NCBI GenBank assembly: GCA_030426475.1
Contig: JAUHYR010000017.1
Location: forward strand, 1-39,739
DNA length: 39,739 bases
Direction of reading: 5' to 3'
Origin: Bacteroidia bacterium
GTDB lineage: Bacteria; Bacteroidota; Bacteroidia; Flavobacteriales_E; Vicingaceae
In this document: positions 2,060 through 9,406 of the stretch, in pieces
Layout of the letters: each line of letters opens with the position of its first letter
Position numbering within the stretch: the stretch's first letter is position 1
Translations under genes and position numbers: made by a program
The notes under the pieces: generated by a model
Seen by the model: only the letters and a program-made list of their open reading frames with translations
What the model was told of the DNA's origin: nothing
Database searches by the model: none

Positions 2060-2090
2060 TTGGATTAGAAGTTGATTTTAGATACTTTTG
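2060..2090 (+). promoter_or_regulatory. Promoter of the suf operon
   Basis: A -33 element TTG (2060-2062) is followed after 20 bases by TACTTTTG (2083-2090), a full match to TAnnTTTG. Both the elements and the spacing agree with promoters used by the Bacteroidota primary sigma factor. The predicted start is near 2097, leaving a leader of about 29 bases before sufA. The start falls at the edge of a perfect palindrome (2098-2116), which suggests repression at this site. Confidence 0.7.
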
Positions 2091-2097
2091 CACTATA

Positions 2098-2116
2098 ATT
2101 TAGATTTTGTCTAAAT
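2098..2116. promoter_or_regulatory. 19-bp palindromic putative operator at the suf transcription start
   Basis: Perfect 7-base arms ATTTAGA (2098-2104) and TCTAAAT (2110-2116) flank a 5-base spacer TTTTG. The palindrome begins where the promoter's +1 is predicted, so a bound dimer would block initiation. The 19-bp layout with TTTAG/CTAAA half-sites resembles operators of DtxR/MntR-type metal repressors, and iron or redox control of suf genes is common in bacteria. The identity of the regulator is inference. A short mRNA hairpin is the alternative reading. Confidence 0.55.
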
Positions 2117-2466: not shown

Positions 2467-3912
2467 ATGGGGTATACAGAGGAAGACTTAGCGAAAGATT
2501 TAAAATCGGAATATAAATACGGTTTCATTTCCAATGTGGAATCTGAGAAGATTCCAAAAGGGCTTAATGAAGATGTTGTTCGGTTAATTTCATTAAAGAA
2601 GAATGAGCCTGAATGGATGACCGATTGGCGAATAAAAGCTTTTCGTCAATGGCAAAAAATGACTGAGCCAACCTGGGCGCATATTCATTACCCAAAAATT
2701 GATTTTCAAGATATAATTTATTATTCAGCTCCTAAACCTAAAAAGCAATTAAATAGTATAGATGAGGTTGACCCTGAACTTTTAAAAACATTTGAGAAGT
2801 TGGGAATTTCTTTAGAAGAACAAAAGCGATTATCCGGAGTTGCGGTAGATGTGGTTTTTGATAGTGTTTCTGTTAAAACAACTTTTAGAGAAAAGCTTTC
2901 CGAACTTGGAATTATTTTTTGCTCTTTTAGTGAGGCAGTCAAAGAGTATCCTGATTTAGTAAAAAAATATCTGGGAACTGTAGTACCTACTACTGATAAT
3001 TACTATGCTGCTTTAAATTCAGCCGTATTTAGTGATGGTTCGTTTTGTTATATCCCCAAAGGAGTGAAATGTCCTATGGAACTTTCTACATACTTTAGAA
3101 TAAATGAAGCAAACACAGGTCAGTTTGAGAGGACTTTGGTAATAGCGGATGAGGATTCTTATGTAAGTTATTTAGAAGGTTGTACAGCTCCAATAAGAGA
3201 TGAAAATCAATTGCATGCAGCTGTTGTGGAATTGGTGGCTTTAGACAATGCTGAGATAAAATATTCTACTGTTCAAAATTGGTATCCGGGCGATGAAAAT
3301 GGCAAGGGCGGTATTTACAATTTTGTAACAAAAAGAGGAATTTGTACCGGAGTTAACTCAAAAATTTCTTGGACACAAGTAGAAACAGGTTCAGCCATTA
3401 CCTGGAAATATCCTTCAACTATTTTAAAGGGAGATAATTCTATTGGTGAATTTTATTCTGTTGCGGTTACTAATAATATGCAACAGGCAGATACGGGTAC
3501 CAAAATGACTCATCTTGGAAAAAATACAAAGAGTACAATTATTTCAAAAGGAATTTCTGCCGGAAAAAGTAATAACTCTTACAGAGGATTGGTAAAAGTT
3601 CACAAGAACGCAGATAATGCCAGAAACTTCACCCAGTGTGATTCTTTATTAATGGGCAACAACTGTGGCGCTCACACTTTCCCTTACATAGAAGTGGAAA
3701 ATAATTCTGCTAAAGTTGAACATGAAGCCACTACCTCTAAAATTGGAGAAGACCAAATTTTTTACTGTAATCAAAGGGGCTTGAGTACGGAGAAGGCAGT
3801 AAGCATGATTGTAAACGGATATTGTAAAGAAGTATTAAATAAATTACCAATGGAATTTGCGGTAGAAGCTCAAAAACTACTTGAAATTTCATTAGAAGGA
3901 AGTGTAGGATAG
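2467..3912 (+). CDS. sufB: Fe-S cluster assembly scaffold SufB
   Basis: SufB is the core scaffold of the SufBC2D complex and is where persulfide sulfur and iron are combined. The 481-residue length is typical. The conserved C-terminal block includes [15 protein letters not shown], with Cys400 matching the conserved essential cysteine, then [15 protein letters not shown] and FYCNQRGL. The N-terminal half has the usual [12 protein letters not shown] helix. A good ribosome-binding site (TTAGGAG at 2454-2460) precedes the ATG. In this genome sufB is separated from its partner sufC by a 1.45-kb membrane glycosyltransferase gene, which is unusual because the proteins act as one complex. Confidence 0.97.
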
Positions 3913-3940: not shown

Positions 3941-5392
3941 ATGAGTAATAAGCTTCATAATTTTCTTTGGTTTTTCTTGATTTTTATTTTGTCTTTTCCG
4001 ATACTATTTCTAAAAATTGAAAACTTTTCGTTTCGACTTTGGGATGAGTCAATGTTTGCAATTAATTCTATAGAAATGCTTAATCAGGGAAGTTGGCTGG
4101 TGCCAATTTATAATGGTATTGCTGATATGTGGAACTCTAAACCTCCCATGACAAATTGGTTGCAAATGATATTTATCAAAATACTTGGGTTTAATGAATT
4201 AGCTGTTCGATTACCTTCAGCTATTGCAAGTTTTTTTACCATTTTAGTCACCTTTTTTTTTGTTAAAAAACACTTTGATAGTCTTGTGGCATTAATTTCA
4301 TCATTAATACTAATTACTTCATTGGGTTTTGTTGGTTTTCATACATCAAGAACAGGTGATAGTGATGCAATAGTCACATTATTTTTAACTATTTCTAGTT
4401 TTATTTTTTTAGACATCCTTTTTAAAAAGGACTATACTAGCTATAAGTTAGCGTTGTTTTTCTTAGCTATTTCTTTTGCCTTTTTAAGTAAAAGCATAAT
4501 GGCATTTTTGTTTTTTCCTGCGTTTTTATCGATTCTACTATTAGAAGGAAAAGACGTTTTGAAAAAAGTATTTAAATCAAAGTACCTTTATTTTGGACTA
4601 GCAACTCTCTTAGGTGTTGTTTTATCCTTTCTTTTTGTCAGAGATAACCTTCAAAAGGGTTATTTATCTTATTTTGTAAATAATGACCTTCTTAGAACGG
4701 TAAATGAAATAGAAAATCACAAAGAACCTTTTTTATTCTACATAAAAAACCTTTTCTTATACCGTTATGAGTTTTGGTTTGTATTATCAATTATTGGTAT
4801 AGGACTTAGCTTATTTAGGTTTAAGGACGATATTAAAATGAAACTAGTCTTCTATATATCTTTAATACTATTGTTTTACCTAGTGATAATATCGGCATCA
4901 GTAACTAAACTGGAGTGGTATGATATGCCGATTTTCCCATTTTTATCAATTGTAGCTGCTGTGGTGATTGATGAATTGATGAATAAAATACCAAATTCTA
5001 AATTTAAGCTGGTCTTTGTTCTTGTCATATTTATCTTTCCTTATCGAATAGCGTTTGGGAAATCTCAGTCTAATTCGTTTAATAGCTATGAGCAGAAAAA
5101 TGAGGCTACAGAGATTTTTTTGTACCGCTCTTACTTAGAAAGTAAAAACTTAAATAATTATACCGTTTATCATTCCGGATATCCAAGAGCAATTGAGTGT
5201 TATATTCATAAGTTTAATGAGGTAAAACAAAATATAAACCTTACCTTTGTACCTGATTTTCAAATAGGAGAAAGGGTAATTATTAGTAGAGATTCGCTCA
5301 AACAAATTCTTCAGAATAAATATGCTTATGATATTGAATTTGATGAAAAGAATGTGACAATTTATAATATTAAAGGAAATGTTAGAGATTAA
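3941..5392 (+). CDS. ArnT/PMT-like GT-C membrane glycosyltransferase inserted between sufB and sufC
   Basis: The 483-residue polytopic membrane protein has a helix at residues 8-25, then an acidic WDE motif (D35/E36) at the start of the first outer loop. KPPMTNWLQ, ELAVRLPSA and TGDSDAIVT follow. These are hallmarks of ArnT/PMT-type GT-C enzymes, which transfer sugars from lipid-linked donors on the periplasmic side. Many hydrophobic helices follow, and a soluble tail of about 100 residues ends the protein. The acceptor and sugar are unknown. The gene starts 28 bases after sufB and its last 14 bases overlap the sufC start, so it sits inside the suf transcription unit. It is visibly more AT-rich than the flanking suf genes: one sampled 60-base line (4261-4320) has 15 G+C against 28 in a sufC line (5461-5520). 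Hydrophobic codons explain part of this. Confidence 0.8.
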   Translation: MSNKLHNFLWFFLIFILSFPILFLKIENFSFRLWDESMFAINSIEMLNQGSWLVPIYNGIADMWNSKPPMTNWLQMIFIKILGFNELAVRLPSAIASFFTILVTFFFVKKHFDSLVALISSLILITSLGFVGFHTSRTGDSDAIVTLFLTISSFIFLDILFKKDYTSYKLALFFLAISFAFLSKSIMAFLFFPAFLSILLLEGKDVLKKVFKSKYLYFGLATLLGVVLSFLFVRDNLQKGYLSYFVNNDLLRTVNEIENHKEPFLFYIKNLFLYRYEFWFVLSIIGIGLSLFRFKDDIKMKLVFYISLILLFYLVIISASVTKLEWYDMPIFPFLSIVAAVVIDELMNKIPNSKFKLVFVLVIFIFPYRIAFGKSQSNSFNSYEQKNEATEIFLYRSYLESKNLNNYTVYHSGYPRAIECYIHKFNEVKQNINLTFVPDFQIGERVIISRDSLKQILQNKYAYDIEFDEKNVTIYNIKGNVRD

Positions 5393-6131
5393 AGATTTAA
5401 AAGTTAGTGTAGAAGACAAAGATATTTTGAAAGGACTAAACCTTACCGTGAAGCCGGGAGAAGTGCATGCTATTATGGGACCTAACGGCTCAGGAAAGAG
5501 TACGCTCGCTTCAATACTTGCCGGAAAAGAAGGATATGAAATTAAGGGAGGCAGCGTAACTTATTTGGGAAAAAACTTGTTAGAACTTGCTCCCGAAGAA
5601 AGAGCAGGAGAGGGTGTGTTTCTTGCATTTCAATATCCTGTTGAAATTCCGGGAGTAAATAATATCAACTTTCTCAGAACTGCTTTAAATGAAATTAGGG
5701 AATACAGAAACGAAGAACCTATTTCTGCTAAAGACTTTTTAGCCTTAGTAAAAGAAAAATCAGCGATTGTTGAGTTAGATACTAAATTGGCTAACCGTTC
5801 TGTTAATGAAGGATTTTCAGGAGGAGAGAAAAAGAGGAATGAAATTTTTCAAATGGCTGTTCTCGAACCTAAACTTGCTATTTTAGATGAAACAGATTCT
5901 GGATTAGATATCGATGCATTGAGGGTAGTAGCTAATGGCGTTAACAAGCTTAAATCACCTGAAAATGCTACCATAGTCATTACCCATTACCAAAGACTTT
6001 TAGATTATATTGTTCCTGACTTTGTTCATGTTCTTTATGATGGAAAAATCGTTAAGTCGGGCACAAAAGAGTTGGCGCTGGAATTAGAAGAAAAAGGTTA
6101 TGAGTGGGTTAAAGAAAATGTTGTCGCTTAA
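5379..6131 (+). CDS. sufC: Fe-S assembly ATPase SufC
   Basis: SufC is the ABC-type ATPase that drives conformational change in SufBC2D. The 250-residue protein shows Walker A GPNGSGKST (about residues 34-42), the Q-loop region FLAFQYPVEIPG, the signature FSGGEKKR, Walker B LAILDETDSGLD and the switch VITHYQRLL. All are standard for SufC, including the DETDSGLD form typical of this family. Its ATG lies inside the last 14 bases of the upstream glycosyltransferase gene, in another frame, so translation may be coupled to that gene. It ends one base before the chosen sufD ATG. Confidence 0.97.
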   Translation: MLEIKDLKVSVEDKDILKGLNLTVKPGEVHAIMGPNGSGKSTLASILAGKEGYEIKGGSVTYLGKNLLELAPEERAGEGVFLAFQYPVEIPGVNNINFLRTALNEIREYRNEEPISAKDFLALVKEKSAIVELDTKLANRSVNEGFSGGEKKRNEIFQMAVLEPKLAILDETDSGLDIDALRVVANGVNKLKSPENATIVITHYQRLLDYIVPDFVHVLYDGKIVKSGTKELALELEEKGYEWVKENVVA

Positions 6132-6132
6132 T

Positions 6133-7398
6133 ATGGAAACTGCCTTGGAAATTTCAACCAAAGAAAAGTTTTTACTTAACTTCAAAAACTCTGAAGCAAG
6201 TAATAATGAGCTTGTCAATCAGCTCAAAAAAAATGCTGTTTCAAGTTTAGCGTTATTAGATTTTCCAACTACTAAAGACGAATATTGGAAATATACCAGA
6301 GTTGCAAAAATTATCAATCAGGAGTTTTCTTTAGAACCTAAGATTGAAGTCAAACTTCATTCTATTGACCATTATTCATCAGACAGTTATAAAGTTGTTT
6401 TAGTAAATGGAAAATTACAGTCAGAGAAAAGTGAATTACCATCAGGAATAAAATTTGTTTCTTTTTCAGACACAGAGAATTCAGAATTGTCTTTACTTGG
6501 GAGCATAGCAAATCATGATAAAGAAATATTTACAGCAATAAACACAGCTTATTTTTCGGATGGCTATTTAGTAAAGGTAGATGATAATATAGTTTTGGAT
6601 AAACCAGTTAACATTATTCATGTTGTAACTGAAAAAGCGGTTGTCCTCCCAAGATTATTAATTCACTGTGGTAAACATTCTGAGTTGCAAATTATTCAAG
6701 AATATGTGTCTCAAAATGTTTCAAGCGCACTGAATAATATAGTTACTGAAACTTTTTTAGAGGATGGAGCAGTTTTAGATGTTGTAAAAATTCAAAGCGA
6801 AAAAAATGCTTTTCACATTTCTAATGATTATGTTTCTTCTAAAGCAAATGCAACATTTAATCATACAGTAGTTACTGCCGATGCAAGTTGGGTAAGAAAT
6901 AACTCCAATTTGTACATCAACGGAAGTAATGCGGAAATGAATTTAATGGGCTTGTACATCGGAAAAGAAAAATCACATATTGATAACCATACTTTGATTG
7001 AACATCTTCAACCACATTCTAATTCCAATGAGTTATACAAAGGAATTTTAGATGATAACTCTACCGGAGTATTTAACGGAAGAGTTTTGGTAGATAAAGA
7101 AGCTCAACAAACAAATGCTTTTCAGGCGAACAATAATATTTTATTATCTAAAGAAGCTGCTGTTCGTTCAAAACCAGAACTAGAAATTTATGCGGATGAC
7201 GTAAAATGTTCTCATGGTTCTACCACAGGACAGATGGACGAAGAAGCTGTTTTCTATTTAAGAGCAAGAGGGATAAAAGAAGAAAATGCGGTTAAATTAA
7301 TGTTGAAAGCTTTTGTGGCAGATACACTTTCTAAAATTAAGGATGAAGAGTTGAAAGACTACATTCAAGACTGTATTTTAGAGCCAAGTTTATTTTAA
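6133..7398 (+). CDS. sufD: Fe-S assembly protein SufD
   Basis: SufD is the SufB paralogue that completes SufBC2D and helps with iron acquisition. The C-terminal half has the shared beta-helix motifs: VFNGRVLVDKEAQQTNAFQ, LLSKEAAVRSKPELEIYAD and VKCSHGSTTGQMDEEAVFY. I choose the ATG at 6133 (METALEIS, 421 residues). It begins right after the sufC stop (6129-6131), while the in-frame ATGs at 6100 and 6118 lie inside sufC and would add only a short non-conserved extension. The stop overlaps the sufS start by one base (TAATG), consistent with coupled translation. Confidence 0.95.
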   Translation: METALEISTKEKFLLNFKNSEASNNELVNQLKKNAVSSLALLDFPTTKDEYWKYTRVAKIINQEFSLEPKIEVKLHSIDHYSSDSYKVVLVNGKLQSEKSELPSGIKFVSFSDTENSELSLLGSIANHDKEIFTAINTAYFSDGYLVKVDDNIVLDKPVNIIHVVTEKAVVLPRLLIHCGKHSELQIIQEYVSQNVSSALNNIVTETFLEDGAVLDVVKIQSEKNAFHISNDYVSSKANATFNHTVVTADASWVRNNSNLYINGSNAEMNLMGLYIGKEKSHIDNHTLIEHLQPHSNSNELYKGILDDNSTGVFNGRVLVDKEAQQTNAFQANNNILLSKEAAVRSKPELEIYADDVKCSHGSTTGQMDEEAVFYLRARGIKEENAVKLMLKAFVADTLSKIKDEELKDYIQDCILEPSLF

Positions 7399-8639
7399 TG
7401 AATAAAGTTGCCGACAAATTGCCTATTGATATCACAGAAATTAGAAAACAATTCCCTATTCTTTCTCAAAAAGTAAATGGTAATCCATTAATTTATTTCG
7501 ACAATGGAGCCACTACCCAAAAGCCACTTTCTGTCATTAATGCTATCGACAATTATTACAAAACCTATAACAGCAATATTCATAGAGGTGTTCATCACTT
7601 GAGTGTTAAAGCTACTGAAGCTTACGAAGAAGCAAGAAGAACTATTCAGCAATTTATAGGCGCAGAGCATGAGGAAGAAATAATTTTTGCCAAAGGAACA
7701 ACTGACGCCATTAATTTAGTTGCTCATTCTTTTTCCAAAGCATTTATTCATGAAGGAGATGAAATTATCATTTCAGGAATGGAACATCACAGCAACATTG
7801 TTCCTTGGCAAATGGCTTGTGAAGAAAGAAAAGCCGTTTTAAAAGTTATTCCTGTTTTAGATAATGGAGAAATTAGTATTGATGATGTCCAAAAATTGAT
7901 TTCCGATAAAACCAAAATCATTGCCATTACTCATTCTTCAAACACTTTAGGAACAAACAATCCGATTGAAGAAATAATTTCCATAGCTAAATCAAAAGGT
8001 ATAAAAACATTAATTGACGGAGCTCAAGCCATACATCATCAGCCTGTTAATGTAAAAGAATTAGATTGTGATTTTTATGCTTTTTCCGGACATAAAATGT
8101 ATGGTCCAACGGGAGTTGGCATTCTTTATGGCAAACAGGAACTTTTCAAGAAAATGCCTCCTTATCAAGGTGGTGGAGACATGATAAAAACAGTAACTTT
8201 TGAAAAAACTATCTATAACGATTTACCACATAAATTTGAAGCGGGTACGCCAAACATAGTTGGAGGTATTGCAGTTGCGGAAGCAGCAAAATGGATTTCA
8301 AGCATTGGTTTTGATACTATTCAACAACACGACAATGAAATTCTAAATTATGCTACGGAAAAATTATCGGCAATTGAAGGGGTTAAAATTTACGGAACTT
8401 CAAAAAAGAAAGGGCCGGTTATTTCCTTTTTAATAGATAATATTCACCCTTTTGATTTAGGAACAATATTAGACCAACTTGGTATTGCGGTTAGAACAGG
8501 GCATCATTGCACAGAACCATTAATGGATAGATTTAAAATTCCTGGAACTGTGAGAGCTTCGTTTGCGATTTACAATACTTTAGAAGAAGTAGATGTGTTT
8601 ATTGACGGAGTGAAAAAGGCAAAAAAAATGCTTTCATAA
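7398..8639 (+). CDS. sufS: Cysteine desulfurase SufS
   Basis: SufS is a PLP enzyme that takes sulfur from L-cysteine as a persulfide, leaving alanine. The 413-residue length fits. The PLP lysine lies in SGHKMYGPTG (K233) and the persulfide cysteine in TGHHCTEPL (C371), the short-loop class II form that depends on a SufE or SufU partner. That partner follows directly, with the start codon overlapping the sufS stop (TAATG). Other family motifs are IYFDNGATTQKP near the N-terminus and GMEHHSNIVPW. Confidence 0.97.
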   Translation: MNKVADKLPIDITEIRKQFPILSQKVNGNPLIYFDNGATTQKPLSVINAIDNYYKTYNSNIHRGVHHLSVKATEAYEEARRTIQQFIGAEHEEEIIFAKGTTDAINLVAHSFSKAFIHEGDEIIISGMEHHSNIVPWQMACEERKAVLKVIPVLDNGEISIDDVQKLISDKTKIIAITHSSNTLGTNNPIEEIISIAKSKGIKTLIDGAQAIHHQPVNVKELDCDFYAFSGHKMYGPTGVGILYGKQELFKKMPPYQGGGDMIKTVTFEKTIYNDLPHKFEAGTPNIVGGIAVAEAAKWISSIGFDTIQQHDNEILNYATEKLSAIEGVKIYGTSKKKGPVISFLIDNIHPFDLGTILDQLGIAVRTGHHCTEPLMDRFKIPGTVRASFAIYNTLEEVDVFIDGVKKAKKMLS

Positions 8640-9058
8640 TGACGATTGAAGAGAAACAGAATCAAATCATTGATGAATTTTCCATGTTTTCAGATTGGAT
8701 GGAAAAGTACGAGTACATTATTGAACTTGGAAAAGACCTGCCGTTAATTGATGCTCAATACAAAACACCTGAAAATATTATTAAAGGCTGTCAATCTCAA
8801 GTTTGGTTGCATGCCGATTTAGTAGACGGAAAAATTGTTTTTACGGCCGATAGCGATGCGGTGATTACTAAAGGAATAATTTCTTTATTAATATCCGTTT
8901 TGTCAGGTCACTCACCAAAGGAAGTAGCGGAAGCAGAGTTATTTTTTATTGATAAGATTGGATTAAAAGAGCATTTATCACCTACTCGTTCAAATGGATT
9001 ACTTTCTATGGTGAAACAAATGAAAATGTATGGGATAGCTTTTCAGGCAAAAGTTTAA
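8639..9058 (+). CDS. sufE: Sulfur acceptor protein SufE
   Basis: SufE accepts the persulfide sulfur from SufS and hands it to SufB. The 139-residue protein keeps the family core: LPLIDAQYKTPENIIKGC, with the acceptor cysteine at C51, then QSQVWLHA, and later FFIDKIGLKEHLSPTRSNGL. One-base overlap with sufS supports paired production. A TAnnTTTG box straddles the end of the gene and could give the downstream genes some independent transcription. Confidence 0.96.
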   Translation: MTIEEKQNQIIDEFSMFSDWMEKYEYIIELGKDLPLIDAQYKTPENIIKGCQSQVWLHADLVDGKIVFTADSDAVITKGIISLLISVLSGHSPKEVAEAELFFIDKIGLKEHLSPTRSNGLLSMVKQMKMYGIAFQAKV

Positions 9059-9088: not shown

Positions 9089-9406
9089 ATGTCAGTAGAT
9101 AAAAGAGACATAGAAAATAAAGCAATAGAGGTTTTAAAGACCATTTACGACCCTGAAATTCCAGTGAATATTTACGAGATGGGATTAATTTATGAAGTAA
9201 AAGTAGATGATGAAGCCAATGTTGCTATTTTAATGACGCTTACATCACCTTCTTGCCCTGTTGCTGAAAGTTTACCACCTGAAGTAGAACAAAAAGTTGC
9301 GGGAGTGAAAGGAGTGAACTCAGCTAAAGTTACCTTAACCTGGGAGCCAACCTGGACCAAAGATATGATGAGTGAAGCAGCAATGCTTGAACTTGGACTA
9401 GTATAA
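9089..9406 (+). CDS. DUF59/MIP18-family Fe-S maturation protein (SufT-like)
   Basis: The 105-residue protein carries the MIP18/DUF59 core: TIYDPEIPVNIYEMGLIY, then a conserved cysteine in TSPSCPVAESLPPEV (C56), and TLTWEPTWTKDMMSEAA at the end. Relatives (SufT, PaaD, eukaryotic CIA2) help insert Fe-S clusters into client proteins. The place directly after sufE supports such a role here. I do not assign a firm symbol, because this short single-domain form is named differently across phyla. Confidence 0.88.
   Translation: MSVDKRDIENKAIEVLKTIYDPEIPVNIYEMGLIYEVKVDDEANVAILMTLTSPSCPVAESLPPEVEQKVAGVKGVNSAKVTLTWEPTWTKDMMSEAAMLELGLV

Follow-up and report, generated by a model that had tools for sequence, protein, structure and literature searches.

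The window (the whole stretch of DNA analyzed here, 39,739 nucleotides) harbors a suf operon on its forward strand. The first gene of the operon, at 2126–2452, is sufA-like and matches TIGR00049 above that model's cut-off. Family searches identified sufB (2467–3912), sufC (5379–6131), sufD (6100–7398), sufS (7398–8639), and a sufE-like gene (8639–9058) that scored below the curated cut-offs; these are followed by a gene for a SUF-associated protein (9089–9406; TIGR02945, 143.5 bits against a cut-off of 143.4). Positions 3941–5392, between sufB and sufC, encode a 483-residue membrane protein that appears glycosyltransferase-like by eye. On the reverse strand, a divergent AIR-synthase-family gene (975–2036, assigned by family search), which we take to be thiL-like, has a common intergenic region with suf.

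The sequence TTGGATTAGAAGTTGATTTTAGATACTTTTG (2060–2090) in this intergenic region occurs once on the forward strand of the window. It comprises a TTG (2060–2062; the −33 element), 20 bases, and TACTTTTG (2083–2090), a TAnnTTTG sequence that we assign as the −7 element of the suf promoter from its letters and from the published consensus. In Flavobacterium psychrophilum promoters, TAnnTTTG occupies −12 to −5 (PMC9723704); by this convention, the suf transcription start is predicted at about position 2095. After a gap of 7 bases from the −7 box lies ATTTAGATTTTGTCTAAAT (2098–2116), also found once on the forward strand of the window: an ATTTAGA-N5-TCTAAAT dyad that would span approximately +4 to +22 and ends 9 bases before the sufA ATG (2126). 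The initial annotation of this DNA had described a full Bacteroidota promoter and a perfect palindrome at +1 to +20, placed for repression. Both elements are present, and the predicted position of the dyad on the start is close to the one that had been claimed.

Is the palindrome meaningful in itself? Perfect 7-bp inverted repeats with 3- to 8-base loops number 40 in the window, and nine of these have a 5-base loop. Allowing up to two mismatches, TTTAGA-N5-TCTAAA occurs eight times in the window, compared to a mean of 10.9 in shuffled sequence. In the whole genome, the exact pattern is found twice (at suf and at a gene for a LuxR-type regulator) vs. once for the reversed control. Given these counts, a bare palindrome is common and proves nothing by itself. 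What goes beyond chance is the conservation of the dyad, not the palindrome as such.

This conservation is apparent in the suf leaders of relatives, a comparison that the initial annotation had proposed. The loci were fetched from named genomes by means of SufB, blind to the motif; the best 80 of 590 relatives were retained, and up to 560 bases 5' of SufB were scanned (two loci were shorter). We scored sites against the 14 arm letters of the window's dyad, which are identical to the arms of a published box discussed below, and used 100 dinucleotide shuffles as controls. The dyad is kept: at least 12 of the 14 letters are present in 36 of the 80 loci (shuffles: mean 0.92, maximum 3). Raising the threshold to 13 letters leaves 23 loci, and all 14 letters are found in nine; the respective shuffle maxima are 1 and 0. 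At 11 letters or more, the count is 56 of 80, against a shuffle mean of 9.8 and a maximum of 17. Among these 56, the dyad begins 5–7 nt past a TAnnTT(T/C)G in 30 and at another distance in three, while 23 have no TAnnTT(T/C)G in the 32 bases 5' of the dyad. For the 36 loci with at least 12 letters, the 5–7 nt placement past the −7 box is seen in 20. In the remaining 24 of the 80 loci, no site reaches 11 letters; among them are Flavihumibacter, Niastella, Chryseobacterium, Pedobacter, Larkinella, Mesonia, and Capnocytophaga. A Chryseobacterium suf locus (L057), from a genus of the same family as Riemerella, has no good box (10/14). Cultivated relatives with the dyad at suf include an Aquimarina and a Winogradskyella.

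We also sought a stricter pattern, ATTTAGANTNANTCTAAAT, in 149 genomes including the window's own, 46 of which belong to the window's family. In these 46 genomes, it has 158 forward sites (rows summed) vs. two for the reversed control, and 44 of them have at least one site. The window's own suf site has one central mismatch to ATTTAGANTNANTCTAAAT and hence is not among the 158. To describe the surroundings, we used 64 unique family sites among the matches listed and three sites of the own genome (suf, nqrA, and the cytochrome gene), for a total of 67; neighboring genes were assigned by running family searches for one or two representatives and by reading the others by eye. Among the sites listed, the box stands beside suf in 15 genomes, counting the window's own, and beside feoA-feoB in 12 relatives. 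It also occurs in the family beside genes for HmuY with a type IX sorting domain, imelysin, a TonB receptor, DUF4856, the LuxR-type response regulator, and an Mrp/NUBPL-type protein, beside nqrA, and beside a gene for a multihaem cytochrome c. The latter is followed by a gene for a TAT-variant molybdopterin protein (this second gene was read in the own genome only). We take this cytochrome operon to encode an alternative complex III; its nearest NCBIfam models are QrcA and QrcB, both below cut-off, and TIGR04519, above cut-off. A RIC-like protein that scores weakly (37.5 bits against a cut-off of 204.7) is a further neighbor, as are a U32 peptidase, a SpoIIE-type phosphatase, and a protein that looks porin-like by eye and has no family match. 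In one genome of another family, a heme oxygenase gene has the box. The supposed link to iron is supported in relatives by the feoAB, HmuY, imelysin, and multihaem-cytochrome genes, and the box probably belongs to an iron regulon common to the window's family.

In the window's own genome (97.66% complete), a longer form of the dyad, with up to two mismatches, has eight sites vs. 13 for the control, so counting sites is uninformative there. Four sites lie at promoters that are boxed in relatives (suf, the LuxR-type gene, nqrA, and the cytochrome operon); the last two are degenerate, with one and two mismatches, respectively, where relatives have exact matches. The genome search for TTTAGA-N5-TCTAAA that had been suggested is a weak test here: exact sites exist only at suf and the LuxR-type regulator, and the own feoAB promoter has no box, whereas those of 12 relatives do among the sites listed. 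The own regulon appears reduced. The Fur protein encoded in this genome is the most divergent of 31 orthologues, with a mean identity of 56%, while the others average 72% pairwise. The own fur gene sits between rhodanese-like and lgt-like genes; in relatives (L162–L180), the next gene is mostly purA-like or a short one that looks STAS-like by eye. A CxxC pair is missing from the Fur orthologues of several family genera (g4, g5, g7, and g14; L181–L184, L187, L188, and L250–L254) and is kept in the other 20 compared. Three genomes of genus g4 have an extra FUR paralogue of about 140 residues (L185, L189, and L190).

Which protein would recognize the dyad? By family search, the own genome has one FUR gene, one DtxR gene, and no Rrf2 gene. 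The FUR gene matches PF01475 (E = 9.8e-28). Its product's best matches among solved structures are Fur and PerR proteins, and its highest score is 91.5 bits against the Fur of Bacillus, short of the cut-off of 220, followed by 73.8 bits against PerR. FUR is found in 45 of the 46 family genomes; the exception (G043, 72% complete) has two dyads, and in two other genomes (G014 and G018) FUR is present but exact dyads are absent. The regions upstream of the 35 FUR loci examined contain at most 10 of the 14 arm letters.

The Fur box of Riemerella anatipestifer was predicted as ATTTAGAATTATTCTAAAT, and purified Fur shifted the four promoters that were tried, according to the results section and table of PMC5609570; we took the box from there and not from the abstract, where, as in PMC7976709, the E. 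coli consensus is printed as the box. In Table 5 of PMC5609570, the shifted promoters of hmuR and RAYM_01847 have close boxes, that of RAYM_09824 a partial one, and that of sprT none. In addition, rhuB, which has ATTTAGAATTATCCTAAAT, is described in PMC10986502 as repressed by iron and Fur and as bound by Fur. The window's dyad agrees with ATTTAGAATTATTCTAAAT in 14 of 14 arm letters and in two of five central letters, and on these arms we annotate it as a predicted Fur box. The initial annotation had judged the half-site to be unlike classic Fur boxes; this holds for the E. coli box only, as the Riemerella Fur box has the same arms.

The sequences themselves show the dyad and how it is conserved, its location behind the −7 box, the adjoining iron-related genes, and the single Fur. 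A Fur operator is the most likely identity of the dyad; binding by this Fur, the metal that loads the protein, and the direction of control are inferred. In the mechanism that we propose, the single Fur, loaded with iron, would bind ATTTAGA-N5-TCTAAAT over the suf transcription start and block RNA polymerase at the promoter. The Fe-S assembly genes would be kept low under ample iron and relieved of repression under iron shortage. Repression of suf by iron-loaded Fur is suggested by the position of the dyad and by the logic of the Riemerella uptake receptors. In Riemerella itself, Table 3 of PMC5609570 lists suf as rising under iron limitation in the wild type and the fur mutant alike, and feoA and feoB as reduced when fur is mutated; suf and feo are thus not simply repressed by Fur in that organism. 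In the available portions of open-licence papers, neither a Fur box at suf nor a DtxR box was seen for Bacteroidota.

The initial annotation had instead compared the half-site to those of DtxR/MntR-type metal regulators, and the dyad could be the operator of this genome's own DtxR/MntR-type repressor. That protein is MntR-like with an FeoA domain, and its gene is followed by a ZIP-family gene (contig C38; L083 1024–1698 and 210–1022). The resemblance of the half-sites is genuine. We inspected 31 dtxR genes, the own and 30 fetched by family search, all from the window's family. Scanning spacers (k) of 0–10 bases, we found TTTAG[AG]-Nk-[TC]CTAAA within 300 bases upstream of 25 of the 31, always with k = 4, and at none of these spacers in the other six; the exact TTTAGA-N4-TCTAAA precedes 19. 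At the own dtxR, TTTAGGCTTACCTAAA abuts the −7 box. DtxR would presumably bind this putative 4-spaced site, as its place before dtxR suggests. The spacers, however, differ by a single base: a spacer of 5 occurs at no dtxR locus (0 of 31), and an exact site with a spacer of 4 at no suf locus (0 of 80). Before sufB, TTTAGA-Nk-TCTAAA over the same range of k is exact with k = 5 in 11 of the 80 loci and with no other k. With up to one mismatch, k = 5 accounts for 28 of 80 vs. no more than two for each other spacer; with up to two, the figures are 45 of 80 and 4–24. The dtxR and suf sets come from different organisms; within the family, the suf sites among those listed are 5-spaced, but they were found by means of a 5-spaced pattern. 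Over the family, the 4-spaced pattern has 74 summed sites vs. 25 for the control. The form at the own dtxR promoter, TTTAGG-N4-CCTAAA, was also tried as a family pattern and rejected, as it is not enriched (15 of 46 genomes, 24 forward vs. 38 reversed sites).

The distribution of the regulators also counts against DtxR. It is above cut-off in 42 of the 46 family genomes, at least one of which is marginal (G034, 26.1 bits in a 93-residue frame). Two genomes without a DtxR gene in their assemblies, G023 and G004, keep six and five exact 5-spaced dyads and have zero and one 4-spaced sites, respectively. G023 (96% complete) has one FUR and no Rrf2 gene, and its sole weak DtxR hit is a MarR protein. 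In G004 (100% complete), the DtxR hits are only ArsR-type and Lrp-type proteins; it has two FUR and two Rrf2 matches and is therefore evidence against DtxR only. Further, a box of the 5-spaced type is bound by Fur in Riemerella (PMC5609570 and PMC10986502). The observation of a shared half-site thus stands, while the assignment to DtxR/MntR is improbable.

At least as improbable is that the LuxR-type response regulator is the binder and regulates itself through a dyad in its own promoter. The dyad does immediately precede this gene, both in the own genome (L084 1501–1519) and in many relatives (L104, L123, L133, L140, and others). But many of the other targets of the box are iron genes, and a like box is bound by Fur in Riemerella (PMC5609570 and PMC10986502). 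Moreover, three genomes of genus g11 have seven exact sites at suf, feo, cytochrome, and Mrp-type genes and none at a LuxR-type gene, as judged from site positions only. The own LuxR-type gene is divergent from a gene for a DUF7948 protein.

A 5'-terminal RNA hairpin in the suf message, acting on stability or attenuation, is a very unlikely explanation of the dyad. The leader does fold (−4.7 kcal/mol over 44 nt), but with a z-score of only −1.07: 29 of 200 shuffles match or exceed its stability. Across 31 suf leaders, selected for their promoter spacing and for similarity in the arms, none of the seven arm pairs has changed on both sides, and 47 of 217 cells are broken; the promoter-proximal arm is nearly fixed, while the distal arm drifts. 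Boxes upstream of promoters would also fall outside the message. An Rfam search of 1950–2200 returned one chance hit, to mir-651, whose 17.1 bits fall far short of the gathering score of 106. Equally remote is control of suf through the dyad by an Rrf2-type (IscR/SufR-like) regulator: such proteins control suf or isc in other bacteria and are matched in 30 of the 46 family genomes, but they are absent from the own genome and from G023 with its six dyads.

Relative to promoters, the box stands in two geometries in the 67 sites. In the first, TAnnTTTG starts 16 to 10 nt before the dyad (41 of 67 sites); the genes concerned include suf, feoA, the LuxR-type gene, HmuY, imelysin, and others. In the second, it starts 63–76 nt after the start of the dyad (12 of 67); nine of these sites belong to the cytochrome gene and two to nqrA, and one (L157) has no gene in reach. 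As a control, the −7 box occurs at a rate of 0.07 per position over all sites. The two kinds differ in their −33 elements: of the 38 first-kind promoters with boxes at −17 to −12, 30 have a TTG 18–22 nt before the −7 box, vs. one of 12 of the second kind (Fisher p = 2e-5, with related genomes that are not independent). The distance in the second kind is 63 and 65 in the own genome and 74–76 in relatives, except for L157 (64), a difference of about one helical turn. Three more rows have the −7 box at 54, belonging to the gene divergent from the cytochrome gene; 20 rows have one at 100–128 (13 before the divergent thiL-like gene), with five elsewhere. For twelve sites, the three main ranges contain no −7 box. 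Activator-dependent promoters show poor −33 elements and helical phasing. An upstream box 63–76 bp before the −7 box, with 11 of 12 promoters devoid of the TTG, thus predicts activation.

These strands can be joined in a tentative reading, to which we give somewhat less than an even chance. The half-site TTTAGA would be common to two metal sensors, with a spacer of 4 for the DtxR/MntR type and of 5 for Fur. The 5-spaced box would repress at the starts of suf, feo, and haem-uptake genes, and from upstream it would activate the alternative-complex-III-like and Na+-NQR operons with iron-loaded Fur. If this is true, one box would shift a cell away from iron uptake and repair and toward iron-rich respiration. 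Two predictions ensue: Fur and DtxR would be told apart by a spacer code of one base pair, and iron-rich respiratory operons would be activated through a box lying upstream. The box also supplies a list of candidate Fur targets, suf included. Iron control in Bacteroidetes is described as largely unknown in PMC9478572, and a fur deletion was not obtainable in F. psychrophilum, according to PMC9331221.

How does the proposed suf operator compare to known systems? Its counterpart within the family, the putative DtxR/MntR operator, has the same half-site but a spacer of 4 instead of 5, and lies before dtxR instead of suf. In Escherichia coli, Fur controls the suf operon through iron-dependent repression, with an operator of the GATAATGATAATCATTATC type and further inputs; the logic of repression proposed here is the same, whereas the operator sequence and the promoter type are different. 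The Irr box, or iron control element, of alphaproteobacteria (TTTAGAA-N3-TTCTAAA) is bound by a protein of the Fur superfamily and is nearly the same dyad, yet the own Fur reaches only 36–37 bits against Irr models, compared to 91.5 against the Fur of Bacillus. The Riemerella Fur box shares the 14 arm letters, the 5-base spacing, a site near the start codon, and iron- and haem-uptake targets. In that organism, suf is absent from the Fur-box table of PMC5609570 and its iron response persists in the fur mutant; here, the box lies on suf itself.
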